Shown here piece by piece: positions 2 through 15,735 of a stretch of DNA of 31,357 nt. How positions within the stretch are numbered: position 1 is the stretch's first letter; each line of letters opens with the position of its first letter. A program made the position numbers and the translations under genes. The DNA is taken from the IMG/VR virus record IMGVR_UViG_3300024999_000282, positions 1 to 31,357 of that record. The stretch is one strand, 5' to 3'. Below the pieces are notes generated by a model. It saw nothing but the letters and a program-made list of their open reading frames with translations. It did no database searches and was not told the origin of the DNA. Origin of the DNA: a virus.

Positions 2-2929
2 GACCAGGTGCTGTTCATCAACTCCCGCGGCCGCAAGTTTTTCTACAGCCAGGTGCAGAGCGTGCCGGAGCTGTGGGCCGTGCATCGGCTGGATGAGGGC
101 GGCAAGCCGGTGAGGCGGGCGCTGCGGCTGTTTACCCGGCCGGAAAAGGCGATCGCGTTTGCCGAGGCACGGGAGTACGCCACCACCGTCAAGCACCGAC
201 CGGCCAAGGATGTGGCCGACGCCTGGGAGAAGCGCAAGCTGTATGCCCCAGCCCAGCTGGCCCAGCTCATCAACCAGGCGACCAGAAAGGACCGCCTCTT
301 TGCCGTCATTCCCGGCGCTCAGGAGCTGCTGCGGATTAATGCCTCCCTGAAGAGCTGGATTCTGCTCTCCTCCTTCTTCCATCATATCGCCGGCACCAGG
401 TCGTGGGCTTTGGGCGTTGATCATGGTTGGCGGCCGAAGTCCATTACTGATCCGGTGAGCGGAGAAACGTTCCGGACCGCCGGCCTTAATCCGGTGCGGG
501 CCTATAAGATGGGGGTGCGCAAGATCGAGAACCTGCACCCGCTCATCATGCGCGGGGTCAAGAACGGGCTCACCCTGGGGAACATGCAGGATTGGGATGA
601 GTCGGCCCTGCGGCAGGACTTGGGCTATTCCCGCAAGCTCGCCCGCCATCTTGGACTGGAAGCGGTGGATAAGGCCATGGATAAGGGGGCACGGCTGCGG
701 CAGGGCATGGCTGATTCCCTGTTCAAGCGGTATTTTGCCGGGCTCAAGGCCGAGGCCTTCGCCATGGAGTATGTGCATGAGCTGCAGCGGGCCAAGGAGC
801 GTTTTGAGCGCGGTCAGGGATCGGCTCCGGACGTGGACAAGGTTGCCGAACGGGTAGCCAGGCTGATCAATGAGGATTTCGGCGGCCTGCACCTGCAGCG
901 CATGGGCCGTCACCCGACCCTGCAGAAGATCCTGCGCTTGCTGCTGCTCGCCCCCGACTGGTGTGTCGATGCCAAGACCAGGGCCATGACCAAAGATGGC
1001 TGGCGCTTTTACCATGAGCTGTCGGACGATGATGAGATCATGGCCTTTGACCCGCAAACGCATACCCTGCGATGGTCAAGGCTGAAAGACAAGTATGTCA
1101 ACCAGCACTATGCGGGGAAGATGGTGCAGATCAGGAATGTCAACCGCCACATCATGATGACCCCGGAGCATACCTGTTATGCCCGGAATTTCACCACCGG
1201 CCAGTATGACATTGTTAAGGCGAAAGATTTACAGACGAACCACTTGATTCCGCGTTGTGCGCCGTTTCCGGCTCCAGTTGATAAAACAATTACCGATAAT
1301 CTGGTGAGAACTGTGGGATGGATGGTGACAGACGGCCACGTAAAACCAGTCAGATGGACAAGAAAGGATGGTTCGGTCGGGCACAGCGGGACAGGGAAAA
1401 TAAAGCAGGCAAAACCGCATACGGTCAAGATACTGAAGGATATGGGGTTCTCCTGCTATGTGGACAATTTTGTTTCTGACCATGGGAAATTTGTCTCGCG
1501 GCATCCTGCCTATGTTTTTTCGGTGCCGGCGAAGACCATTTCCGAGATGGAGAAGCTTGGAATCAAAGACAATAATCTGACCTGGGAGTTTTTGCGCAGG
1601 CTGACGGATGAGCAGAGGCAGATCCTTTATGACACGATGATGCTTGGCGACGGCACCGGGCAGAAAAGATTTTGCGGTAAGGAAAAAGAAGTGTTCTTAA
1701 TGACCATGCTGCAGACCATGATGGGGTTGCCGAGCACGTTCTACCAGCAGGAAAAGAACTGCTGGCGGACTAGGTGGATCACCAGGGGCAAAGACATCAG
1801 TTGCTGGGGGCATCACAATAATAAGAGAGAGGTTGATTACTCTGGCACTATATGGTGCCCATCCGTCGATACCGGGTTCTGGTTGGCCGAACGTGAAGGC
1901 CTGATGTTTATTACCGGCAATACTGAAAGCAACTTTCGCATGGTCAGCGGCCTGATACCCAAGGCCAACGAGTGGATATCGAAGATGGTGGGCGATATGC
2001 AGCCCACCCCCGGCATGCGGCCGCACTACAACCGCTTCTTCGCCAAAGTACTGCTGCGGACCGCGGCGTCTACCTTTTTGCTGCAGATTCTGCTCAACGG
2101 CTGGGACGATTCGGAAAAGTTTTGGAAGGAACAGATGAGCGGTGAGAATTTTTATAAGTTCCGCTGGCTGTATGCCGATATCAGCAAGATTTACCAGGCC
2201 CTGGGTATCGACCTGGAAGGCAAGCGCAAGGTTTTCCCATTGGCCGGCCATTTCCTGGACCCGCTCAAACTCTTTGACCCACCACGGCTGATTAAGGGCA
2301 AGGGCAGCCCGATCATGCGGGCCGGTGAGGCGCTGATGGGCGGCACGGACTGGGCGGAGCGGCCGTTTACCGGCTCCAGGGATTTTCTGGCCACCGGCAA
2401 GACGGTGAAGGATTCCCGCTATGCGGCCAAAGAGGGCCCTTACGATCGGCTGCCAGCCACCCTGGTCAACCAGGTGATAAATATGCAGCCGGTACAGGTG
2501 GGATATTTTCTTAAGTGGCTGCAGGGCGAGGAGGACACCCTGTCCGCCCTGCTGCTTTCCGCCGGCGTCGGGGTGCATAACGCCTGGCAGCCACCCATGA
2601 CCGGGCCGGTGCGGCTGGCCGATGACCCGGTCAGCGCGGAGATCGAGCGGTTGACCGCGGCCCAGCTGCTACATATGGGGCCGCCCTCTCGTACCGTGAC
2701 CATCGGCGGGCTGCCGCAGAAGATGGACCGGCCAACCTACGATGATTATGTGCAGCGCAGTTCCGAGCGGGTAAAGGCCAGGCTGCTGCCCCTGGTGCAG
2801 TCGGAGAAATGGCGGAAGTACAGTCAGGAGCAGCAGGCGGAGATCGTCCGCGATGTGATTATCAGCTCGCGCAAGAAGGTGCGGGGAACCATTAAGAGGC
2901 GGACGATCCGGGCCGCCGCAAACAAATAG
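2..2929 (+). CDS. Large phage virion protein (ejection/core-like), interrupted by an intein; 5' end outside window
   Basis: The frame is open from base 2, so the gene probably begins upstream; the first possible start here is GTG at 8 with no clear ribosome-binding site. Numbering from that GTG, 973 residues are visible. Residues 319-638 are an intein (separate entry), leaving about 653 residues of mature protein. The spliced junction would read LLLLAPDW/TESNF, and a long hydrophobic stretch (AASTFLLQILLNGW) follows it. Basic helical segments and a very basic C-terminus (KKVRGTIKRRTIR) resemble the large internal or DNA-ejection proteins of short-tailed phages, but I recognise no specific family. 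It is followed 10 bp later by a membrane-anchored coiled-coil gene and then by fibre genes, which supports a virion role. Late coding is well supported; the exact function is inferred. Confidence 0.8.
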   Translation, partial: DQVLFINSRGRKFFYSQVQSVPELWAVHRLDEGGKPVRRALRLFTRPEKAIAFAEAREYATTVKHRPAKDVADAWEKRKLYAPAQLAQLINQATRKDRLFAVIPGAQELLRINASLKSWILLSSFFHHIAGTRSWALGVDHGWRPKSITDPVSGETFRTAGLNPVRAYKMGVRKIENLHPLIMRGVKNGLTLGNMQDWDESALRQDLGYSRKLARHLGLEAVDKAMDKGARLRQGMADSLFKRYFAGLKAEAFAMEYVHELQRAKERFERGQGSAPDVDKVAERVARLINEDFGGLHLQRMGRHPTLQKILRLLLLAPDWCVDAKTRAMTKDGWRFYHELSDDDEIMAFDPQTHTLRWSRLKDKYVNQHYAGKMVQIRNVNRHIMMTPEHTCYARNFTTGQYDIVKAKDLQTNHLIPRCAPFPAPVDKTITDNLVRTVGWMVTDGHVKPVRWTRKDGSVGHSGTGKIKQAKPHTVKILKDMGFSCYVDNFVSDHGKFVSRHPAYVFSVPAKTISEMEKLGIKDNNLTWEFLRRLTDEQRQILYDTMMLGDGTGQKRFCGKEKEVFLMTMLQTMMGLPSTFYQQEKNCWRTRWITRGKDISCWGHHNNKREVDYSGTIWCPSVDTGFWLAEREGLMFITGNTESNFRMVSGLIPKANEWISKMVGDMQPTPGMRPHYNRFFAKVLLRTAASTFLLQILLNGWDDSEKFWKEQMSGENFYKFRWLYADISKIYQALGIDLEGKRKVFPLAGHFLDPLKLFDPPRLIKGKGSPIMRAGEALMGGTDWAERPFTGSRDFLATGKTVKDSRYAAKEGPYDRLPATLVNQVINMQPVQVGYFLKWLQGEEDTLSALLLSAGVGVHNAWQPPMTGPVRLADDPVSAEIERLTAAQLLHMGPPSRTVTIGGLPQKMDRPTYDDYVQRSSERVKARLLPLVQSEKWRKYSQEQQAEIVRDVIISSRKKVRGTIKRRTIRAAANK
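962..1921 (+). other. Intein with LAGLIDADG homing endonuclease domain
   Basis: A 320-residue protein-splicing element lies in frame inside the virion protein. It begins at Cys319 (block A: CVDAKTRAMTKDGW). Block B has TPEH with His388. Two dodecapeptide-type endonuclease motifs follow, VGWMVTDGH (Asp442) and DTMMLGDGTG (Asp548), so both acidic metal ligands are present. The C-terminal blocks read WCPSVDTGFWLA and then FITGN, ending at Asn638, with Thr639 as the +1 nucleophile. The residue before the terminal Asn is Gly rather than the usual His; as I recall, a group of phage inteins ends this way. The insert, especially about 1200-1860, looks more AT-rich than its flanks. Splicing and homing are inferred from the intact motifs. 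Confidence 0.93.
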
Positions 2930-2939
2930 GGAGGACCCT

Positions 2940-3434
2940 TTGGAGCCAGGTATATGGTCGAAAATCGTGGAGGCTGCTCTGCTGGTGGCGGTCACCGGCG
3001 GCGGATTCGGGCTCAGTGTCAGCATGATCAAGGATCATCTGACGGCCACGGAAAAACGGATGAAAGAGGATAGCGGCCTAACGGAACAGCGCCTGCAGGA
3101 AAAGATCGGCATGATCAAGGATCATCTGACGGCCACGGAAAAACGGATGAAAGAGGAGGTTGGCAGCACGGAAAAGTGCCTGAAAGAGGAGGTTGGCAGC
3201 ACGGAAAAGCGCCTGAAAGAGGAGGTTGGCAAGCTGCAACAAGAAAGTGGGGCGGCGGTGAAGGAGTTAAACGAGTATGTGGCGGACCTGTACGAGAAGC
3301 ATCACGGCTGTCGGGCCGAGCTGCCCAATGTGTTTGCCAAGGTGCACGCAGTGGAGAGACTGGAGGCCTCCCATGATGATCTGGAGAGGAAGGTATCATA
3401 TATGCAGGGCCGGCAGAACGGCAGCCTGCAGTGA
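2940..3434 (+). CDS. Membrane-anchored coiled-coil phage protein with internal repeats
   Basis: The product has 164 residues. TTG at 2940 is chosen because GGGAGG ends six bases upstream and the previous stop is just before it. Residues about 9-28 (VEAALLVAVTGGGFGLSV) form one hydrophobic segment. The rest, to about residue 100, is charged coiled coil built from repeats. A 29-residue unit beginning MIKDHLTATEKRMKE occurs twice, followed by an 11-residue unit (EEVGSTEKRLK type) in tandem, which is a hendecad pattern. Cys residues occur in the repeat and in the C-terminal part (HHGCRAEL). It sits between a large virion protein and fibre genes, so it may be a virion-associated or lysis-related protein. 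The family is not recognised. Confidence 0.75.
   Translation: MEPGIWSKIVEAALLVAVTGGGFGLSVSMIKDHLTATEKRMKEDSGLTEQRLQEKIGMIKDHLTATEKRMKEEVGSTEKCLKEEVGSTEKRLKEEVGKLQQESGAAVKELNEYVADLYEKHHGCRAELPNVFAKVHAVERLEASHDDLERKVSYMQGRQNGSLQ
3023..3230 (+). repeat. Nested direct repeats encoding coiled coil
   Basis: A 48-bp sequence at 3023-3070 recurs exactly at 3110-3157, an offset of 87 bp or 29 codons. Immediately after, a 33-bp (11-codon) unit starting GAGGAGGTTGGCAGC begins at 3153 and 3186 and partly again at 3219. Both periods are multiples of three, so the repeats stay in frame and change the length of the coiled coil. Confidence 0.95.
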
Positions 3435-3461: not shown

Positions 3462-3908
3462 ATGCCGACGTATCACAACGATTCAACGAAGATCTACACC
3501 CTGAACACCGGTCTGCTGGAGGCAGGCAGCGAGTTTTTCCGGCCGGGCAACACGGTGCAAACCAGGGAGCTGCTGGACAGCCTGCCGGATGTGGTGCGTA
3601 CGGCGGATACACCCTATGCCCATGAGTCAAGAACGATTAGCACCGATGACACCATGACTCCATGGGTGTGGACGCCGAAAGGGGAACATGTGCTGATTCT
3701 GGGCGGCGACTGGCAGGGAGTGGTGACCGTGCAGCGCGCCATCGCTTCTGACGGCAGCGACGCGGTATTGGCAGGGGAGTTCACTTCTGATGAGCCCAGT
3801 CAGGTGCACGCCCTGGCAGAAAATATTGGTGCCTATTATCGATATGGTTTTCTGGCCACTGGGTTGTCAAGCGGTAGCCTGAATGGCAATATGCAGGTAG
3901 GTGAATAA
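3462..3908 (+). CDS. Small phage virion-region protein, unknown function
   Basis: The product has 148 residues. ATG at 3462 is preceded by AAGGAGATAGGTT, a strong ribosome-binding site. The sequence looks beta-rich and globular (TPKGEHVLILGGDW, VVTVQRAIASDGSDAVLAG) with no signal peptide or membrane segment. Its TAA overlaps the ATG of the tail-fibre gene (TAATG), so the two are probably translationally coupled. A small protein just ahead of the fibre may be a fibre adaptor, a head-tail joining protein or a head decoration protein; I cannot choose between these from sequence. Confidence 0.8.
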   Translation: MPTYHNDSTKIYTLNTGLLEAGSEFFRPGNTVQTRELLDSLPDVVRTADTPYAHESRTISTDDTMTPWVWTPKGEHVLILGGDWQGVVTVQRAIASDGSDAVLAGEFTSDEPSQVHALAENIGAYYRYGFLATGLSSGSLNGNMQVGE

Positions 3909-6900
3909 TGAAAATTCTGGTATGGGAAGATCCTGCAAATGTAGTTGGTCACGGCGGCTCATTACGTACCATCATCCTGAATATGTGCCCACATCTGGCG
4001 GATGAGGATGTGATTGTCTGTTATGCCGGAGAAACAAATCCGGCATTCCCATCCTGGACCGCCTCTTTTACTGACGCTGGGTATGCGACAGTGGCAAGTT
4101 ATGCAGCTGCTGAAGGTTTCGCTATCGTCAATCGATCGTACACATCCAGTAGCCGTATGCTTGATTTCGAAGACGCCGGTGTGCCCATTGTCCATGCCTG
4201 TACCGGCGAGGTGGGCAACGGACCCGGCTGGTGCTGTTTTGTTGGTCGTGATTATTTTGACCTGAGCACCACCAGTGCAGCGTCGAATGCCTTGGATTTC
4301 AAAATCCAGTATGACGGTACCCTGTCGGCTGGGACAGCCACAGTAACTGGCCACCTTGCCAATCTGTTGTATAATCACTCGACCTGGAATTTCTCCGATG
4401 CTCGCCAGGCTTTGCGACAAACAGCCAGTGACTATGACACCAGTTGGACCAACGCCAAGGGGTACGGCTATATCGATTACGTCGCAGCCAATGCTTTAGC
4501 TGATGTGGCCTTGGTTATCCCCACTCCCGGCGATCTGCGTGTGACGGTCAACAATGTGCTGCCCGCAGTATATGCATCCTGGTCAAATCTGCCGGCATCA
4601 GTAGCCACATATACTGCCACGAAACTCGTACTGTTTGCCGCGTTGCCTGATAATTCCACCTCTATCGCCAGTGGCACCCTGCTGTACGAGGGGCCGTTGC
4701 TTGATTACACCTGGGACAGTTCGTCAGTCGTACCGCCCACGGTAGGCACGCATTTCCTGGCGGTCTATGCGGTAGATGATCAGGCCGGCACATCACGACT
4801 GGAGACATATGGACCGCTCTCCCTGGAAACCGTATTGGTCGAGTCGCGCAACTGGTTTGTGGACAATGAGTTGGTGGCCGCGGTGCAAGACGGCCTATCC
4901 TGGGAAACGGCATACACCAGTTATGAGGCAGTCAAAGCGGTGTCTGCTGTTCAGGATAGCATTTATGTCAAAGCAACCGACACGCCTTATTTCATGTCTA
5001 CTGCAATGGCCACTGCAGCATTTACGTATGGGGACGCCACAGGTTCTGGCACGGAACGCGGTAAGAAACGGGCTGTTGTCTTGAGTGCGGCCACTGGGTT
5101 GATGAGTGTGGCATCCCTGGTGCCCGCTACTGAATACCCATCTTTGTACAATTTTGCTGGAGCATCCTCAGTGCTGCTTGCTGGATTGCACGATGGGAAA
5201 AAACTGGTCAGACTGCTGACTAAAGCCACCAGTGTAGAGGATTGCTTGGCCACACCAGGATCATGGCTATATGATGGGGTAACACATAAAAATTTCCTTA
5301 ACCCTGCCGGACTCGGCCCGCAGTATTTTGTGGTTTGCAGCGATGGAGGGTTTTATGCCAGGTCAAATGGTGGCATCATGGTCGGGATTGACTTCATGTT
5401 CCATTTTCCCGGAGCCTCCTATACCGATTTGGCCAGTCCCGTTCTCTGGGAGGACGTGACTGTCTCCTACTGCCGTTCCGGTCCATACGCCTATGCCAAT
5501 TCGTCGCCCCATGGAATTACTCTGCGGCGAGTGACATCTCGGCAGGTGGGCGGCAGTTCCGGTAGTAAGGCATTTGATTTCACCAGCCGAGCCACAACAC
5601 CTGGTGCCAGGATCAGGGCGGAATATTGCCTGGCTGAAAATTGCGGGGTTTCTGACACGCAGGATGGTCTTGGTAGCAGCCCTGTTTCGGGCTTTACCGT
5701 GGCGCACAATGAGTTGGCGGTATACGCTCATTATGGGGTAGAGCTGGTGAACAGCACTGCACGTAACTGCAGCGGCGACCGTTTTAAACAAACAGGTATA
5801 AACGGCAAGCTGTTTGTGGAAAATTGCCATGGCACCGGCGTTATTAACTATGGTTCTGCAGATTTTAATCAAGCAGTCAGTACAGCCACAGTGACCTGTG
5901 TGAATAACCGGGCTGGTAGTATTATTCCCTATGCTGGCACCTGGGAGGCCAACAAAGGCACAGGGGCGGCAGAGAACAATGAAGTGGAACTGGCAGCCTC
6001 TGCAGTGGCCGGAATTCATGATCAGGCCACACCGGCGTTGGATATTCACGGTAAAAGTGTTTACACCCTGCCTGATGTTGGCGCCGTGCAGATCAGCGGG
6101 CCGCTGTATTTCCATGGTAGCGCACCGGCCGGTGGTAACGGAACCATGTCGCGGCCGTTCAATGCCCTGACTGACTACGCGCTTACCGGATTGCGTGCCG
6201 GTGCTGAACTGATGTTTGCCGGTGCACTTGGTGTGCTGGACCTGTCTGGCTGTGCCGATACTGGGAGCAAATCCGTTACTCCCTGGCCGAATAAGACGGG
6301 ATCATTGGCCGGATTTATTGGCGGAGTAAACGATACATTTCTCTTCTCCAGCCGGCAAGGTGCAGATCGCGGTATGTTTAAATCAATCTGGAGAAAAAAG
6401 ACTATGGGTGACGATGGGTTGTGGCGGAGTGTGGTCAATGAGGCGGTGGATTTTACGGCTCTGCCGGTTGCCGCCGTGAATAGTGGTCGGGTGATGCGGT
6501 GCAATCCACTGGTCGCCGGGCAACCCTATTTCTGGGTCTGTTCTGACGGGCAGTTCTGGCGACCGTTCAACGGCAGTGTCGTGCTGTACACCCAGGCTGA
6601 TGATATTGTATTCACCACGGCAGCCGGGGAGCAGATCGGCATCACGATACCGATTCCGGCTGGTATGCTGGCAGACAATCGTTCGGCATTACGCTGCTGG
6701 TGGGGTATGCAACATGAAGGCGGGGCAACTGACACAGTAACAACCAGAATGCGATTTGGATTAAATAATGACATAACCGACACTGCACTTTTTCAATTAG
6801 CTTTAGTAACTACTGGTCTTTCTGGTGGGGTGCAGAATCAGGCCAGCCGCGTGTCTCCGACCTCTATCCGTAAAATAGGTGCTGCCGGCGTTGCTTCTGC

Positions 6901-7069
6901 TGTTTCTTTATCTGTTGCGTCGGCCATAGGCCGGCAAGCTGCTATTACCATCGGTGATACTAATAATCCGACCGTGACAAATTATGTTAATGTGACCTGT
7001 CAGCTTACTGCAGGTGGTAGCACTGAGTACGGCATAATTAATGGCTATACCCTGAAGTGGATGGGGTGA
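3908..7069 (+). CDS. Beta-helix tail fibre / tailspike protein with a subtilase-like N-terminal domain
   Basis: The product has 1053 residues and starts at the ATG overlapping the upstream stop. Residues about 1-200 resemble a subtilisin-like fold without an obvious catalytic triad: the segment at about 138-198 (VTGHLANLLYNHSTW... GYGYIDYVAANAL) matches the C-terminal helices of S8 peptidases, but there is no GTSMAxPH motif. A fibronectin-III-like part follows at about 200-310. Near 314 a segment of the type NWFVDN...DGLSWETAY marks the start of a right-handed parallel beta-helix. A second such start (GSAPAGGNGTMSRPF) lies near 735. Two related modules carry PQYFVVCSDGGFYAR and PYFWVCSDGQFWRPF. 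The last about 170 residues are probably a receptor-binding head. This is the host-recognition protein; enzymatic cleavage of surface glycans is possible but no active site is identified. Confidence 0.85.
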   Translation: MKILVWEDPANVVGHGGSLRTIILNMCPHLADEDVIVCYAGETNPAFPSWTASFTDAGYATVASYAAAEGFAIVNRSYTSSSRMLDFEDAGVPIVHACTGEVGNGPGWCCFVGRDYFDLSTTSAASNALDFKIQYDGTLSAGTATVTGHLANLLYNHSTWNFSDARQALRQTASDYDTSWTNAKGYGYIDYVAANALADVALVIPTPGDLRVTVNNVLPAVYASWSNLPASVATYTATKLVLFAALPDNSTSIASGTLLYEGPLLDYTWDSSSVVPPTVGTHFLAVYAVDDQAGTSRLETYGPLSLETVLVESRNWFVDNELVAAVQDGLSWETAYTSYEAVKAVSAVQDSIYVKATDTPYFMSTAMATAAFTYGDATGSGTERGKKRAVVLSAATGLMSVASLVPATEYPSLYNFAGASSVLLAGLHDGKKLVRLLTKATSVEDCLATPGSWLYDGVTHKNFLNPAGLGPQYFVVCSDGGFYARSNGGIMVGIDFMFHFPGASYTDLASPVLWEDVTVSYCRSGPYAYANSSPHGITLRRVTSRQVGGSSGSKAFDFTSRATTPGARIRAEYCLAENCGVSDTQDGLGSSPVSGFTVAHNELAVYAHYGVELVNSTARNCSGDRFKQTGINGKLFVENCHGTGVINYGSADFNQAVSTATVTCVNNRAGSIIPYAGTWEANKGTGAAENNEVELAASAVAGIHDQATPALDIHGKSVYTLPDVGAVQISGPLYFHGSAPAGGNGTMSRPFNALTDYALTGLRAGAELMFAGALGVLDLSGCADTGSKSVTPWPNKTGSLAGFIGGVNDTFLFSSRQGADRGMFKSIWRKKTMGDDGLWRSVVNEAVDFTALPVAAVNSGRVMRCNPLVAGQPYFWVCSDGQFWRPFNGSVVLYTQADDIVFTTAAGEQIGITIPIPAGMLADNRSALRCWWGMQHEGGATDTVTTRMRFGLNNDITDTALFQLALVTTGLSGGVQNQASRVSPTSIRKIGAAGVASAVSLSVASAIGRQAAITIGDTNNPTVTNYVNVTCQLTAGGSTEYGIINGYTLKWMG

Positions 7070-7122: not shown

Positions 7123-7171
7123 TCTTGTTAAAATTTTTCTTAGATTTACGGTGTAACTTGTTGATTTTATG

Positions 7172-7217
7172 TGGTGCCCCCGGCAGGAATCGGACCTGCG
7201 GCACCAGGATTAGGAAA
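7172..7217 (-). other. attP: attP core: 3' part of a tRNA-Arg(CCU) gene
   Basis: Read on the minus strand, this 46-bp segment is the 3' part of a tRNA. It has the anticodon-loop remnant CCTAA, the anticodon-stem 3' side, a T-arm with perfect stem GCAGG/CCTGC, the acceptor 3' strand CGGGGGC, discriminator A and encoded CCA. It resembles tRNA-Arg(CCU), a common phage attachment target. No matching 5' half (GCCCCCG) exists upstream on that strand, so this is not a full tRNA gene. The integrase gene begins 62 bp away and phage genes lie on both sides, so it is attP, not a host-phage junction. Confidence 0.85.
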
Positions 7218-7265
7218 TAGGTTTGCGGTTGTATCTTGTTGTTGTTGCGTAATTTGTTGCATGTA

Positions 7266-7279: not shown

Positions 7280-8302
7280 CTAATCGCGCAGCTTCTCTAC
7301 CTCCTGGCGGACGAAGTCCTGCCGGATGTGGGTGTAGATTTTGTTGGTCGTTTCGATGCTGGCGTGGCCAGCCAGTTGCTGCAGGGCGTGGGCGTTGACG
7401 CCGCGTTCCGCGGCCAGGGACAGAAAGGTGTGGCGCAGCAGGTGGTGGTGGACATTGCGCTCGATCCCCGCCGCCTGCGCCGCCCTGGCCAAAGCCTTCC
7501 TGATGCGGTAGAACGGTTTGCCTGTTTTGCCGTTAATGCTGAGGAAGCCGGATGGTCTGTGCTCCAGGGCGGCCAGCAGTTCCCTTTCCAGCCGGTCCGT
7601 GGTCCACGGGATGATCCGGTATTTCGAGCCCTTGCCCAGGATGGTGATGGTCCGCAGGTGCTCGTTGATGTTCTCGGCCCGCAGCTGCAGGGCCTCGCTG
7701 ATCCGCAGGCCGGCGTCTACCATGAGCAGGTAGATAAGCCGATATGCCGGCTCGATGGCCTGGTAGATGGCGGTGGCCTGCCGGCTGGTGAGCGGGTGTT
7801 TCGGCTCGGCCTGGGTGCGTTTCTGCGGGAAGAGAGGGAATGAGAAGGCGAGGGGTTGACAGTGGCCAGCCCTGACCGCCCATTTAATCAGGCTGTTCAG
7901 GATGGACAGCTCTTTGTTGATGGTTCTCGGCTTGACGCCTTCGTCCAGCCGTTTTTTTTTGTATTGATTGACCAGGGTTATGGACAGGGCCTGCGGCTGA
8001 TGCAGGCCGAAGAAGGCAACAAGCTGGGCGCTGAAAACCGATCTGGTGTCCAGCATGGTGGTTTCGGCCACTTCGTTCTCATAAAATTTATAGAAGTCAA
8101 GAACCAGATCCTTGATGCGCGGCGCGGAGTGGATCACCTCAGTTTTGCCTGACGTTTGCCGCACCGTTCTTTCGTATTCGGCGGCGGCGTCGAAGGAGCC
8201 GGTGAACGGGATGTAGGTGCGGTTTTTGCCGTAGCCGATGACGACATACCAATGCCGGCCAGGTTCTTTTTTACTTTTGGTCGGGTGGGGGATGACACTC
8301 AT
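7280..8302 (-). CDS. int: Phage tyrosine integrase
   Basis: A site-specific recombinase of 340 residues that would insert the phage at the tRNA-Arg site next to its 3' end. An N-terminal arm-binding domain (about 1-60) is followed by a SAM-like core-binding domain (about 62-145). The catalytic domain has Arg200 (GLRISEALQL), Lys224/Lys227 in a beta-hairpin (GKGSKYR), H287-x-x-R290 (HLLRHTF), His313 (LAGHAS) and the nucleophile Tyr323 (NKIYTH), a complete set. The start ATG overlaps the stop of the upstream secreted-protein gene by four bases, so translation is probably coupled. It is the last gene of the operon headed by the cI repressor. Confidence 0.97.
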   Translation of the reverse strand: MSVIPHPTKSKKEPGRHWYVVIGYGKNRTYIPFTGSFDAAAEYERTVRQTSGKTEVIHSAPRIKDLVLDFYKFYENEVAETTMLDTRSVFSAQLVAFFGLHQPQALSITLVNQYKKKRLDEGVKPRTINKELSILNSLIKWAVRAGHCQPLAFSFPLFPQKRTQAEPKHPLTSRQATAIYQAIEPAYRLIYLLMVDAGLRISEALQLRAENINEHLRTITILGKGSKYRIIPWTTDRLERELLAALEHRPSGFLSINGKTGKPFYRIRKALARAAQAAGIERNVHHHLLRHTFLSLAAERGVNAHALQQLAGHASIETTNKIYTHIRQDFVRQEVEKLRD

Positions 8303-9256: not shown

Positions 9257-9937
9257 TCAGTAATTCTTCACCTTCTGCACCACCACCCCGATGATGCGGA
9301 ATTCGATGCCGGTCATGTCCTTGATCGGGTACCGGCTATTTAATGGTTTGAGAAAAACGTTGTCCCCGTCCATGACGAGCTGCTTGAAGGTGGCCTCGTT
9401 GCTGCCGTTTTTCGCCACGATGAAGCTGCCGTTGCGGTGCTGCACGGCGGGATCAACGACAATAATGTCCCCCTCCCGGAATTCCGGCTCCATGGAATCA
9501 CCGTGGATGGTCAGGGCGAAGGTATGGGGGCCGCACGGTCGGGTGGCATAGACGAACTGGGCCACTTCCTGGTATTCCACGGCCTCGGCCCAGTCGCCGG
9601 CCTGCACCCACGAGATCAACGGCGCACGGCACAGGGGCGGGGCGGAGGTGGTGTTCCTCGGTAATCGTGTATCGTCCATTTCTGCCACTACGCCGCCGGA
9701 CAACAGTATGCGTCCCATATTGAGCATATCCTCGTAATCGTAATTAAAATAGCTGGCTATCTTACGGCGTGTCGTTTCATCTCCTTCGCGTTTGCCTTTA
9801 GCATAGTTGTTCAGAGTGCTTGTCGCCATATTGCAAGCTGCCGCTATCTCATGCTGCGGAGCCCTGCTCCTTTTTAAAAGACAGGCTAACGCCGTGCTGA
9901 ACATTTCTCCTACTGTATAGTTTTTTTTCTCTATCAT
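9257..9937 (-). CDS. cI: CI-type lysogeny repressor (HTH plus S24 self-cleaving domain)
   Basis: The product has 226 residues. The ATG at 9937 is chosen over one 19 codons upstream because GGGAG precedes it and the upstream codons overlap the operators. The helix-turn-helix spans about residues 18-60 (HEIAAACNMATSTLNNYAKG). A LexA-like S24 peptidase domain follows with cleavage site Ala113-Gly114 (WVQAGDW), nucleophile Ser148 (HGDSMEPEF) and Lys185 (ATFKQL). It would bind the three operators at 9963-10033, silence the rightward early promoter and be inactivated by RecA-stimulated self-cleavage after DNA damage. It heads the leftward operon that ends with the integrase. Confidence 0.95.
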   Translation of the reverse strand: MIEKKNYTVGEMFSTALACLLKRSRAPQHEIAAACNMATSTLNNYAKGKREGDETTRRKIASYFNYDYEDMLNMGRILLSGGVVAEMDDTRLPRNTTSAPPLCRAPLISWVQAGDWAEAVEYQEVAQFVYATRPCGPHTFALTIHGDSMEPEFREGDIIVVDPAVQHRNGSFIVAKNGSNEATFKQLVMDGDNVFLKPLNSRYPIKDMTGIEFRIIGVVVQKVKNY

Positions 9938-9962
9938 TTTTCTCCCTTTCCAGTCCGCACTA

Positions 9963-10033
9963 TTCACTTTTTGTGAAAAAAAATAAATTGACAATGTGTG
10001 AAAATTCTTGACACATAATTCACAAAGTGTGTA
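9963..10033. promoter_or_regulatory. Repressor operator array (three 15-bp sites)
   Basis: Three copies of an inverted repeat TTCAC-N5-GTGAA lie between cI and cro. The site at 9963-9977 is perfect (TTCACTTTTTGTGAA). The site at 9988-10002 is TTGAC-N5-GTGAA and that at 10019-10033 is TTCAC-N5-GTGTA, each with one half imperfect. The third overlaps the -35 to -10 spacer of the rightward promoter. The graded match to consensus suggests ordered binding by CI and Cro, as in lambda-type switches. Confidence 0.8.
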
Positions 10034-10037
10034 TTTA
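10008..10037 (+). promoter_or_regulatory. Rightward early promoter (PR-like)
   Basis: TTGACA at 10008-10013 and TATTTA at 10032-10037 are separated by 18 bp. The third operator lies within this span, so repressor binding would block polymerase. The first gene, the Cro-like protein, starts 36 bp after the -10 element. Confidence 0.7.
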
Positions 10038-10073
10038 TATTTTCAATCTGAAAATAAGTGAGGAGTGTGATCA

Positions 10074-10280
10074 ATGAAGCAAAAAAAAATGGCAAACATC
10101 ATCGGCGTTTCCCCGGCGTTGATAACTGATATCAAGAAGGGAAGGAAGACGGTGTCGCGGAAGCTGGCTCTAAGGCTCCATGAGCTGACCGGGATCGGGT
10201 TAGATCTGCTGCTGACGTTGCCACCCGCAGAAGTTATCGAGGCTGTCCGTGAAAAACTGGAGAATGATTTAGTTGGGTAA
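10074..10280 (+). CDS. cro: Cro-like small helix-turn-helix protein
   Basis: The product has 68 residues and ATG follows GAGGAGTGTGATCA. It is almost entirely an HTH fold: KKMANIIGVSPALITDIKKGRKTVSRKLALRLHELTG, with the recognition helix around residues 13-22. It is divergent from cI and the first gene read from the rightward promoter, the usual position of Cro. It would bind the same operators and turn down cI transcription during lytic growth. The name is by position and fold only; it is not specifically similar to lambda Cro. Confidence 0.85.
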   Translation: MKQKKMANIIGVSPALITDIKKGRKTVSRKLALRLHELTGIGLDLLLTLPPAEVIEAVREKLENDLVG

Positions 10281-10358
10281 GAAATTCACATGATGGCCTT
10301 TTTTGACAAATCACAAAAACAACTTAAACCTTAATTGACAGTAAAAGGGAGGGGTAAC

Positions 10359-11114
10359 ATGAATGATGTAGTTCCGTTTTATTACAGTGAAAACGAGATA
10401 CGTATCATTACCGACAGTCAGGGTGAACCTTGGTTTGTCGCCAAGGATGTGTGCGATGTGCTGGGGCTTGACAATATCACATGGGCTTTAAATGGTTTGG
10501 ATGAAGATGAGCTGACTTTAGAAAAACTAAACTCAGGTGGTCAGACCCGTGAAATGAAACTAATCTCCGAATCCGGCCTCTACACCCTGATCATCCGATC
10601 CAACAAACCGCAAGCCAAAGCATTCCGGCGCTGGGTGACCCACGAGGTTCTCCCCGCCATCCGCAAGACCGGCGGCTACTCCGCTGCCGGCTTCAACTCC
10701 AGCTGCAAAGAAAGAAACCAGGCGGCCAAACGTATCCTGTTGGCGCACAAGGTCATCGAAAACGAACTGCGCGTCTGCAAGCGGATCGGCGTGGACGTGC
10801 TCACGGCGCGGAAGCTGGCCGTGGAAAACGCCCGCGAGGCCACGGGCATTGACTATGCCCCGCTGCTGCCCGCCGCCCCTCGCCAATGCCATGATTTCCT
10901 GGTGGAATGTTGCGAGCTTGATCCGTTCTTCTTCGTCCCCACCCTGGAGCTGTATCGGTCATACCGGGATTGGGCAGCGGAACGGCCTTCGTCGTTGAGT
11001 GAAAGGATGTTCGTTGAAAATCTTCTGGCCGTGCCGGGCATCAGGAAAGAACGGCCGCGGGTGCAAGGCAGCCGGATTTCTATTTTCCGCGGGGTCCGGA
11101 TGAAAAAAACGTAA
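10359..11114 (+). CDS. BRO-N antirepressor fused to a D5-type C-terminal winged-helix module
   Basis: The product has 251 residues. The ATG at 10359 follows AGGGAGGGG. Residues about 8-105 are a BRO-N (phage antirepressor) domain (PWFVAKDVCDVLGL, SGLYTLIIRSNKPQAKAFRRW, VLPAIRKTGGY). A helical linker at about 115-165 precedes a C-terminal module (about 178-250) that matches the C-terminus of this phage's own primase-helicase: RSYRDWA compared with ADYKEWA, and IRKERPRVQGSRISIFRGVRMKK compared with KKERPRIGGARPTVFRGIGLRK in the primase. That module is the Pox_D5-type winged helix, expected to bind DNA. It probably acts in early gene control. Confidence 0.88.
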   Translation: MNDVVPFYYSENEIRIITDSQGEPWFVAKDVCDVLGLDNITWALNGLDEDELTLEKLNSGGQTREMKLISESGLYTLIIRSNKPQAKAFRRWVTHEVLPAIRKTGGYSAAGFNSSCKERNQAAKRILLAHKVIENELRVCKRIGVDVLTARKLAVENAREATGIDYAPLLPAAPRQCHDFLVECCELDPFFFVPTLELYRSYRDWAAERPSSLSERMFVENLLAVPGIRKERPRVQGSRISIFRGVRMKKT

Positions 11115-13125: not shown

Positions 13126-15735
13126 ATGGCGGATAATGGAGTGAGCCGGGTTTACCCGCTGTTTTTCCGGCCGGGCGAGGTCGTCGAAGTTCGGGCGCTC
13201 GGGGTGCGCGGGAATTCCCCCGCCTGGGAGGGCTGGACAAACGGCCCGGTGCGCGGCTATTTCGATAATGCGGCGGATTTCGCCCGGGCCGCGGCCGCCG
13301 TGGACAAGGCCGGCGGCAAGGGTGTCTATTTTACGGCCAACCCGGTCAATCCCGACCTGCTGGCCCGGGCGGCCAACCGCCTGCTGCCGACGGACAGTCC
13401 GTCTTCATCAACATCCGACAAGGATATCGTCTGTAGCCGTTGGCTGCTGGTTGACGTGGACCCCGTCCGGCCCGCCGGTATTTCATCCAGCCAGTACGAG
13501 CTGGAGCAGGCCGCCCAGGTGGGCGAGGAGCTGACTGCCTGGCTGGAAAAGGAATGCGGCTGGCCGGCCGGCATCAGGGCCTTGAGCGGCAATGGCTATC
13601 ACATCAATTACCGCCTGCCGGACCTGGAGCCGTGCCCGGAGATCAGCGGATCCGGCGGTCTGCTACACAAGGCGCTGCAGGCGCTGCAGGGCAGGTTTGG
13701 CCGGGATGGGATCAAGATTGACCAGGTCAATTATAACCTGTCCAGGATCTGGAAGCTGTACGGCACCATGGCCCGCAAAGGGGATTCCACCGCGGCCCGG
13801 CCGCACCGCCGGGCCGCGGTGGCCGCTACTGCTCCGGAGCTGCTGGAGCAGGTGGGGCTGGTCAGCCGGCTGCAGTTGGAAGAACTGGCGGCCCTGGCGC
13901 CGGAGCCGGAGAAGAAGCAGGCCCCTCCCCCTTCCCCCCGAAAAGAAAATCAACCGGTGGTCGGCCAGGATGGCGGTAAGAAGTATGATAAGCAGCTGGG
14001 CAAGATCAAGCTGGACGAGTACCTGGCGCACTACAATATCACCGTTACCGCCACCAAAACAGTGGGGACCGGCGGCACCCTGTACGCCTTTGACCAGTGC
14101 GTGTTCAACGAGGAGCACCGGGGGCATAAGTGCTGCGGCCTGGTCTACTCGGACACGCCGCCGCATCTTACCTACCAGTGTTTCCACGACACCTGCAAGG
14201 GCAGGACCTGGAAAGAGGCGCGGCAGATCATTTCCGGGGACGCCAAGCTGGCCCAGTTCTGCGAGGGGTACGATGCGACATGGCGGCCGCCGGCCAAACC
14301 AGCCGCCTTTTACCGCGATCCCACCGAAGATGAAAAGGCGGCCATGGTTGGGGTGGTGGCGGGAGCGGACGGCGTGCCGAGCCCCCTGGAAATAGGGTGG
14401 GATGAGTTTTTCGATAATCTGGACGGCAAGCGGCCCAGTTTCCGGCAGCAGAAATTGGTGGAATATCTGCGCCGGTACCTGGCGCCTATTGTCCATACCA
14501 GCGGCGAATACTGGCGGTACGGCACCGGGAGGTGGCGGGAAATCAGCGCAGCCGAGGTGGGGAAGGTGGCCGCCGTGGCCCTGGGGGAGCAGATGCAGAC
14601 ATCCAGGATCGAAAACGCCGTCAAAGGCCTCAGTTTTTTTAACAACATGGAAGAGACGGGCTGGACTGCGGGGGTGGAGAGTATCGGCAACCTGGTCAAT
14701 GTGGCCAACGGTATGCTGGATATCGAGCAATTCCAGCTGGTGCCGCACCGGGCGGACTTTTACCTGCGCACCCAGGTGTCCACGGCCTTTGACCCTTATG
14801 CCGAGTGTCCGCTGTGGGTCAAGGCTGTGCAGGAGATTTTCGAGGGAGTGGCGGCAAAGATCCTGGTGCTGCAGGAGTTTATGGGCTATCTGCTGATGCC
14901 CACTTGCCGCTATGAAAAATGTGCTTTTTTTTTCGGCACCGGCTCCAACGGCAAGTCCACGGTCCTGGATATTATGACCTGGTTGCTGGGTGAAGATAAC
15001 GTCAGCGCCCTGTCGCTGGAGTCCATGTCCCGGCAGTTCCCCCTGGTCAGTTTGCGGGGCAAAATGCTGAACAGCGCCACCGAGGTGGACACCAAGGACA
15101 AGGCCGGCACTGAGAACCTGAAAAAGATCATTTCCGGGGACCTGCTCAGTTCTGACACAAAATTCGGCAAGGAGATCACGTTTCGCACGTTCTGCAAGTG
15201 TATTTTTGCCATGAATACGCCGCCCACCATCACGGACAAGGCCTATGGGTTTATCCGTAAGATCCTGGTGCTGAATTTCAACCGCCGTTTTGCCGAGCAT
15301 GAGCGGGACAAGTATCTGAAGGACAAGCTGCGGGAGCAGGAGCTGCCCGGGATCCTGAACTGGGCGGTGGAGGGCGCCCGGCGGCTGATCAAGCAGGGCC
15401 GGTTCACCGATGACCAGGTGCTGCGGGATGATGCGGCGGATTTCATGGCCAAGATGAACAACATTCTGGCGTTTGTCATGGATCGCTGCATCCTGCACCC
15501 CAAGGTGCATCAAGAGTCCAATGAGCTGTTTGCCGACTACAAGGAATGGGCTGACGCCAAGCTTTACCGCAAGGTGGGACAGGGGAAATTCGGCGATCAG
15601 CTGGAGAGTCTGGACGGGGTAAAGAAGGAGCGGCCCAGGATCGGGGGAGCCCGTCCCACTGTATTTCGCGGCATCGGGCTGCGGAAGGTGTGGCAGGATG
15701 TGGTCGGCGACGAAGAAAGGGGGTTGAACCTATGA
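13126..15735 (+). CDS. AEP primase / SF3 (D5-type) replicative helicase
   Basis: An 869-residue primase-helicase that would unwind and prime phage DNA. The N-terminal third is an archaeo-eukaryotic-type primase with DVD at Asp110/Asp112 (LLVDVDPVR) and His159 (GNGYHINYR). Residues about 325-357 hold a Cys/His zinc-binding segment (CVFN... CCGLVY... CFHDTCKG). The helicase core begins with Walker A GTGSNGKST at 604-612, followed by the sensor region CIFAMNTPPTITD and Arg-rich RKILVLNFNRRF. The last about 80 residues are the D5-type winged helix, shared with the BRO antirepressor. It begins 3 bp after the upstream stop with no strong ribosome-binding site, so coupling is likely. Confidence 0.95.
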   Translation: MADNGVSRVYPLFFRPGEVVEVRALGVRGNSPAWEGWTNGPVRGYFDNAADFARAAAAVDKAGGKGVYFTANPVNPDLLARAANRLLPTDSPSSSTSDKDIVCSRWLLVDVDPVRPAGISSSQYELEQAAQVGEELTAWLEKECGWPAGIRALSGNGYHINYRLPDLEPCPEISGSGGLLHKALQALQGRFGRDGIKIDQVNYNLSRIWKLYGTMARKGDSTAARPHRRAAVAATAPELLEQVGLVSRLQLEELAALAPEPEKKQAPPPSPRKENQPVVGQDGGKKYDKQLGKIKLDEYLAHYNITVTATKTVGTGGTLYAFDQCVFNEEHRGHKCCGLVYSDTPPHLTYQCFHDTCKGRTWKEARQIISGDAKLAQFCEGYDATWRPPAKPAAFYRDPTEDEKAAMVGVVAGADGVPSPLEIGWDEFFDNLDGKRPSFRQQKLVEYLRRYLAPIVHTSGEYWRYGTGRWREISAAEVGKVAAVALGEQMQTSRIENAVKGLSFFNNMEETGWTAGVESIGNLVNVANGMLDIEQFQLVPHRADFYLRTQVSTAFDPYAECPLWVKAVQEIFEGVAAKILVLQEFMGYLLMPTCRYEKCAFFFGTGSNGKSTVLDIMTWLLGEDNVSALSLESMSRQFPLVSLRGKMLNSATEVDTKDKAGTENLKKIISGDLLSSDTKFGKEITFRTFCKCIFAMNTPPTITDKAYGFIRKILVLNFNRRFAEHERDKYLKDKLREQELPGILNWAVEGARRLIKQGRFTDDQVLRDDAADFMAKMNNILAFVMDRCILHPKVHQESNELFADYKEWADAKLYRKVGQGKFGDQLESLDGVKKERPRIGGARPTVFRGIGLRKVWQDVVGDEERGLNL

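Follow-up and report, generated by a model that had tools for sequence, protein, structure and literature searches.

Giant DarB-like polyvalent proteins of phages have been described as carrying a set of ParB-like, helicase and methylase domains, and DarB of phage P1 is packaged in the virion (Iyer 2017, PMC5512222). In mycobacteriophage inteins, Gly, Lys or Ser can stand in place of the penultimate His; the intein of the phage Bethlehem recombination directionality factor (RDF), which has Gly, splices completely, and a Gly-to-His change slows its splicing (Kelley 2016, PMC5050341). Here, we describe an intein whose type is well known and whose host protein and insertion site both appear to be new for inteins. 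Indeed, we found no open-access paper that reports an intein hosted by a DarB-like or polyvalent protein. The first-pass annotation of this DNA had considered virion proteins to be uncommon intein hosts. This view is weakened by portal proteins, which belong to the virion and are known to carry inteins.

The DNA analysed, hereafter the window, has 31,357 bases and is an entire IMG/VR virus record. Its first ORF (2-2929, 975 aa) runs off the 5' edge of this record, and positions 962-1921 of this ORF make up exactly 320 codons, in frame and free of stops. The segment starts with CVDAKTRAMTKDGW and ends with MFITGN; its borders are exact, with LLLLAPDW before and TESNF after (W/C1...N320/T). The features of the region are as follows.

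2..961, + strand: N-extein portion of the giant polyvalent protein, ending with LLLLAPDW and running off the start of the record.
962..1921, + strand: predicted intein of 320 aa, a splicing domain with an inserted LAGLIDADG endonuclease.
962..964, + strand: Cys1, the first splicing nucleophile, conserved without exception among the same-site copies aligned.
1160..1171, + strand: block B TPEH, residues 67-70; T67, P68 and H70 are invariant in the aligned same-site copies.
1301..1336, + strand: first LAGLIDADG helix, LVRTVGWMVTDG, holding Asp124.
1625..1660, + strand: second LAGLIDADG helix, LYDTMMLGDGTG, holding Asp230; the L171 copy has a Cys at the equivalent position.
1838..1921, + strand: blocks F and G, YSGTIWCPSVDTGFWLAEREGLMFITGN, a stretch without His that ends with Gly319-Asn320.
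1922..2929, + strand: C-extein, from its first residues TESNF (+1 Thr) up to the stop codon that ends the giant protein.
950..2064, + strand: tract around the intein that is near-identical to a related virus record (G001), with mismatches only at 1085 and 1388 and none in 1389-2064.

The first-pass annotation had claimed a full-length LAGLIDADG intein with Cys1, TPEH, a terminal Asn, a +1 Thr and both endonuclease aspartates. All these residues were found in the window ORF, and the claim itself is borne out by the intact blocks, the exact borders and the end-to-end match to phage inteins. The residue set is that of a class 1 intein, namely Cys1, the block B TxxH in the form TPEH, Asn320 and Thr+1. 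The GC content is about 0.50 in the intein and about 0.63 upstream of it. Class 3 inteins have no nucleophile at position 1 and carry a Trp-Cys-Thr triplet across blocks B, F and G. We rejected this class for the window intein, in which Cys1 is present and Cys72, not Trp, stands two positions past the His of block B; Cys299 and Thr318 occupy the class 3 places of Cys and Thr, block positions being assigned by eye. Altogether, we hold with high confidence that 962-1921 encodes a class 1 intein that is mobile, has a LAGLIDADG endonuclease of intact appearance and is specific to a single site of large phage polyvalent (DarB-like) proteins, within their C-terminal domain.

Residues 1-320 aligned end to end with inteins in phage records (tblastn, E down to 2e-22). 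The matched genes include the portal gene of Gordonia phage Woes, whose record is annotated 'contains intein', and a gene of Turj99 annotated 'intein-containing topoisomerase primase'. Because these matches run end to end, and because five more virus records carry a relative of it at the same position, the likeness is not a chance resemblance. In Pfam, NCBIfam and PHROGs the intein was not recognised above the cut-offs (TIGR01445, E 0.11). An AlphaFold model of the intein, built from four same-site copies, was weak overall (mean pLDDT 54) and poor in its splicing-domain part; the middle, from about residue 100 to 270, is predicted to take up a LAGLIDADG endonuclease fold. The eight best structural matches were all intein endonucleases, among them 2cw7 (Z 11.2) and PI-SceI (1jva, Z 10.1), over residues 101-317, and Foldseek matched the model to LAGLIDADG endonucleases with an E of 2.6e-4. 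The two helices with Asp124 and Asp230 are thus found together with the matching predicted fold of a LAGLIDADG endonuclease.

The distribution of the insert among homologues was surveyed with an alignment that covers the stretch preceding the site, which yielded 60 viral and 13 genome homologues. Both viral search patterns were located upstream of the insertion site; one pattern of the genome search ended with LAPDW, which makes this search less neutral than the viral one. The protein ran uninterrupted across LAPDW-TESN in 56 of the 60 viral homologues and in all 13 from genomes, and the intein was at the same place in four viral homologues (G001, L166, L171 and L190). The check proposed in the first-pass annotation, whether most homologues lack the insert and continue directly from APDW to TESN, therefore gave a clear answer, since 69 of 73 do so. 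A reading of the segment as a normal domain, ever-present and unspliced, is compatible with an insert that is in frame and has no stops, but it is refuted by these empty-site homologues, in which the segment is simply missing; together with the end-to-end match to inteins, they make it hardly conceivable. The empty sites are also strongly conserved: a motif scan covered 67 empty homologues, and every one of them reads L[AG]xDWTxSN. A separate survey used a pattern demanding an empty site; its counts are biased and were left out of the filled/empty ratio, and the conservation ranking is biased alike. A pattern of LAPDW followed by Cys was also discarded, as it gave 20 off-frame chance matches and missed the real copies, partly since Leu was fixed as CTN. 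A search based on the intein itself found a further copy (L229:3001-3951) at YPDW/TTS of a very remote polyvalent-type protein. BLAST gives no link between its extein and the others; hhalign aligns them over 446 columns with a probability of 97, the site being in register. The same-site copies are thus six in total: the window, G001, L166, L171, L190 and L229.

Comparison of these copies points to an element that moves. The inteins of the window and G001 are identical at 958 of 960 bases (99.8%), with two differences, neither of them synonymous, whereas the N-exteins have 86 mismatches in 960 bases (about 91% identical) and the C-exteins 106 in 1008 (about 89%); the upstream extein shows 34 synonymous changes across 319 codons. 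Likewise, L171 and L190 are 70% identical in the intein and 38% in the N-extein, and the intein was closer than the N-extein in every pair compared. On the N-extein tree, the presence of the intein requires four changes, each of them imposed by branches with good support. Inteins closer than their exteins, together with the near-identical tract in the window and G001, make up the pattern that a homing element leaves when it moves sideways. One may object that this pair owes its near-identity to the usual mosaicism of phages or to an artefact of metagenome assembly rather than to endonuclease-driven homing, and that the element may be immobile now. Indeed, both records are metagenomic, phages recombine often, and low divergence reaches past the intein on both sides, over about 450 bases upstream and in parts of the C-extein, so that a shared metagenome or a mosaic assembly could account for part of it. 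We nevertheless consider this explanation unlikely: the tract of lowest divergence takes in the intein from end to end, and the remaining copies give independent cases of the same site and of inteins closer than exteins, with separate placements on the extein tree.

A homing cycle also predicts decaying copies, and two copies look degraded. In L171 (L171:4376-5332) a Cys (TGC) replaces Asp230, the second LAGLIDADG aspartate; going by its residues, this intein probably splices and cannot home. In L190 (L190:4340-5230) the end of the intein and the start of the C-extein are lost, out of frame, and the C-extein resumes in another frame (NVRTMVKAF), a truncation that may be real decay or an assembly error. 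This pattern of gain, decay and loss would be the one expected for a homing element, and it bears apparent signs of spread between distant phages. At the DNA level, we propose that the endonuclease cuts the empty APDW-TES codon run in a co-infecting phage, and that repair of the cut would copy the intein and flanking DNA into the empty allele. Such a mechanism should leave the same site, a patchy presence, inteins closer than the proteins that host them and, in the closest pair, a tract of near-identity, all of which were seen. The same-site set of intact, endonuclease-mutated, truncated and empty forms in metagenomic phages illustrates the homing cycle cleanly in a natural setting.

At the protein level, Cys1, TPEH, Asn320 and Thr+1 would excise the segment, join APDW to TESN and restore the domain, as we infer from the intact blocks. 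The residue that had drawn attention in the first-pass annotation is the penultimate Gly, in place of the His that is usual though not required in class 1 and shows poor conservation among phage inteins. The residue is indeed Gly319, but it is not unusual: all six phage inteins aligned from the library end with TGN, and the five intact copies of the window element family all end with GN. Block F of the window intein has no His, and the same is true of the B23 intein in the aligned stretch. Since the library inteins and the intact copies end with GN, and since the Gly intein studied by Kelley 2016 splices, the Gly-Asn ending is typical of the lineage and not anomalous. These residues are also what could suggest a splicing-dead intein that leaves the giant protein interrupted or merely cleaved; with the penultimate Gly and a block F without His, one could add that the related L190 copy is truncated, so that inactivation does occur. 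However, the known splicing residues are all intact, the TGN ending is common to known phage inteins, a phage intein ending with Gly-Asn splices fully in a published test (PMC5050341), and the extein motif is invariant in empty homologues, so that a permanent interruption should be costly. A dead intein is thus very unlikely. One could also imagine slow or conditional splicing by which the intein acts as a gate on a giant anti-defence protein that is injected, the unspliced protein being packaged and maturing in the next host, or splicing being tuned by the Gly-Asn end; we regard this idea as highly improbable. The window intein is a real homing intein of a known kind, and probably an active one.

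The host gene is complete in G001, a record of 55,761 bases, where it encodes 4524 aa (L005:1229-14803:-), or 4204 aa after splicing by arithmetic subtraction of the intein. The G001 protein matches PF18763 (DdrB-like ParB), ResIII (SNF2-type helicase) and DarB-like PHROGs; a match to the MTS methyltransferase is weak, just below the cut-off. On the same strand, this record also has genes for tail, portal and terminase proteins. The traits of a polyvalent protein are thus found in G001: a multidomain giant with ParB-like, helicase and methylase domains and with virion genes nearby. The window copy is cut off at the start of the record, and its N-terminal domains are inferred from G001. The host is a giant DarB-like polyvalent protein, of which the window holds the C-terminal part. 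The first-pass annotation had called it a large virion protein: large it is, while its place in the virion is a matter of analogy with P1 DarB, by which it is probably packaged.

The C-terminal domain that bears the intein has about 690 aa and belongs to no Pfam family; LPD38, considered as its identity, had no Pfam match in its support. An intein-free homologue (L169) gave a confident model (pLDDT 86), which is similar to phage proteins labelled 'large polyvalent protein associated' (E about 1e-9) and in which the splice site is predicted to lie where a helix begins (residues 348-359). Foldseek found no match for the extein domain in the PDB. In searches with the extein sequences, G001 was the only match of the C-extein in a single-protein search, an alignment of the two extein rows found nothing in genome contigs and G001 alone in viral contigs, and a search of the phage library with the spliced extein gave no match. 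As an observation in its own right, the A4 alignment (L149-L219) delineates a widespread phage domain of about 690 aa with the motif LAPDWTESN, a confident model and no Pfam entry. Desulfobacterales, Desulfosarcina, Desulfovibrio and Pseudodesulfovibrio MAGs contain extein relatives, which are near the window on the tree; this suggests, as a lead only, phages of sulphate reducers.

Elsewhere in the window, tandem repeats of 87 and 33 bases (3022-3231, within ORF 2940-3434) encode a charged coiled-coil-like repeat, and an ORF of 1053 aa (3908-7069), without a match in Pfam or PHROGs, is placed like a tail-spike-like gene. The stretch 7170-7230 resembles part of a tRNA gene and adjoins an integrase gene (7280-8302, - strand); ARAGORN found no tRNA, and the stretch is a candidate attachment site. 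Genes of a temperate phage, for an S24-type repressor, a BRO-N antirepressor-like protein and a P4-type primase, are located at 9257-11114 and 13126-15735.

To the known hosts of inteins our results add a giant phage protein, probably injected against host defences, that is interrupted in its most conserved motif; this position marks the unannotated domain as functionally important. The host shares with polyvalent proteins such as P1 DarB the set of DdrB-like ParB, SNF2-type helicase and methyltransferase domains (PMC5512222), whereas the intein sits in a C-terminal domain outside the Pfam families. In Streptococcus phage phi-SgaBSJ31_rum, a DarB-like gene carries a group II intron, likewise a mobile self-splicing element (PMC12350094). 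The two elements are unrelated, the intron splicing RNA and the window intein protein, and they are likened at the level of the gene. As regards the element itself, the compared phage class 1 LAGLIDADG inteins are those of two Mycobacterium phage enzymes, the Turj99 primase and the Dorothy DNA methylase, and of the Woes and GX15bay portals, the gp55-like protein of Synechococcus phage B23 and the DNA polymerase of phage DP SC_2. All six align with the window intein end to end and have in common with it Cys1, the block B region, the LAGLIDADG region and the Gly-Asn end, and most of them also share its WC in block F; they differ in sequence (about 23-26% identity), host protein and insertion site. 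PI-SceI and the archaeal intein endonucleases (1jva, 2cw7) share the LAGLIDADG endonuclease fold, with only 10-14% identity over the aligned part, and come from longer inteins. Finally, the Bethlehem gp51 RDF intein is, like that of the window, a phage class 1 intein with a penultimate Gly that adjoins an invariant motif (PMC5050341). Its host is a recombination directionality factor, it is there that the effect of the Gly was tested (PMC5050341), and the likeness is one of description.
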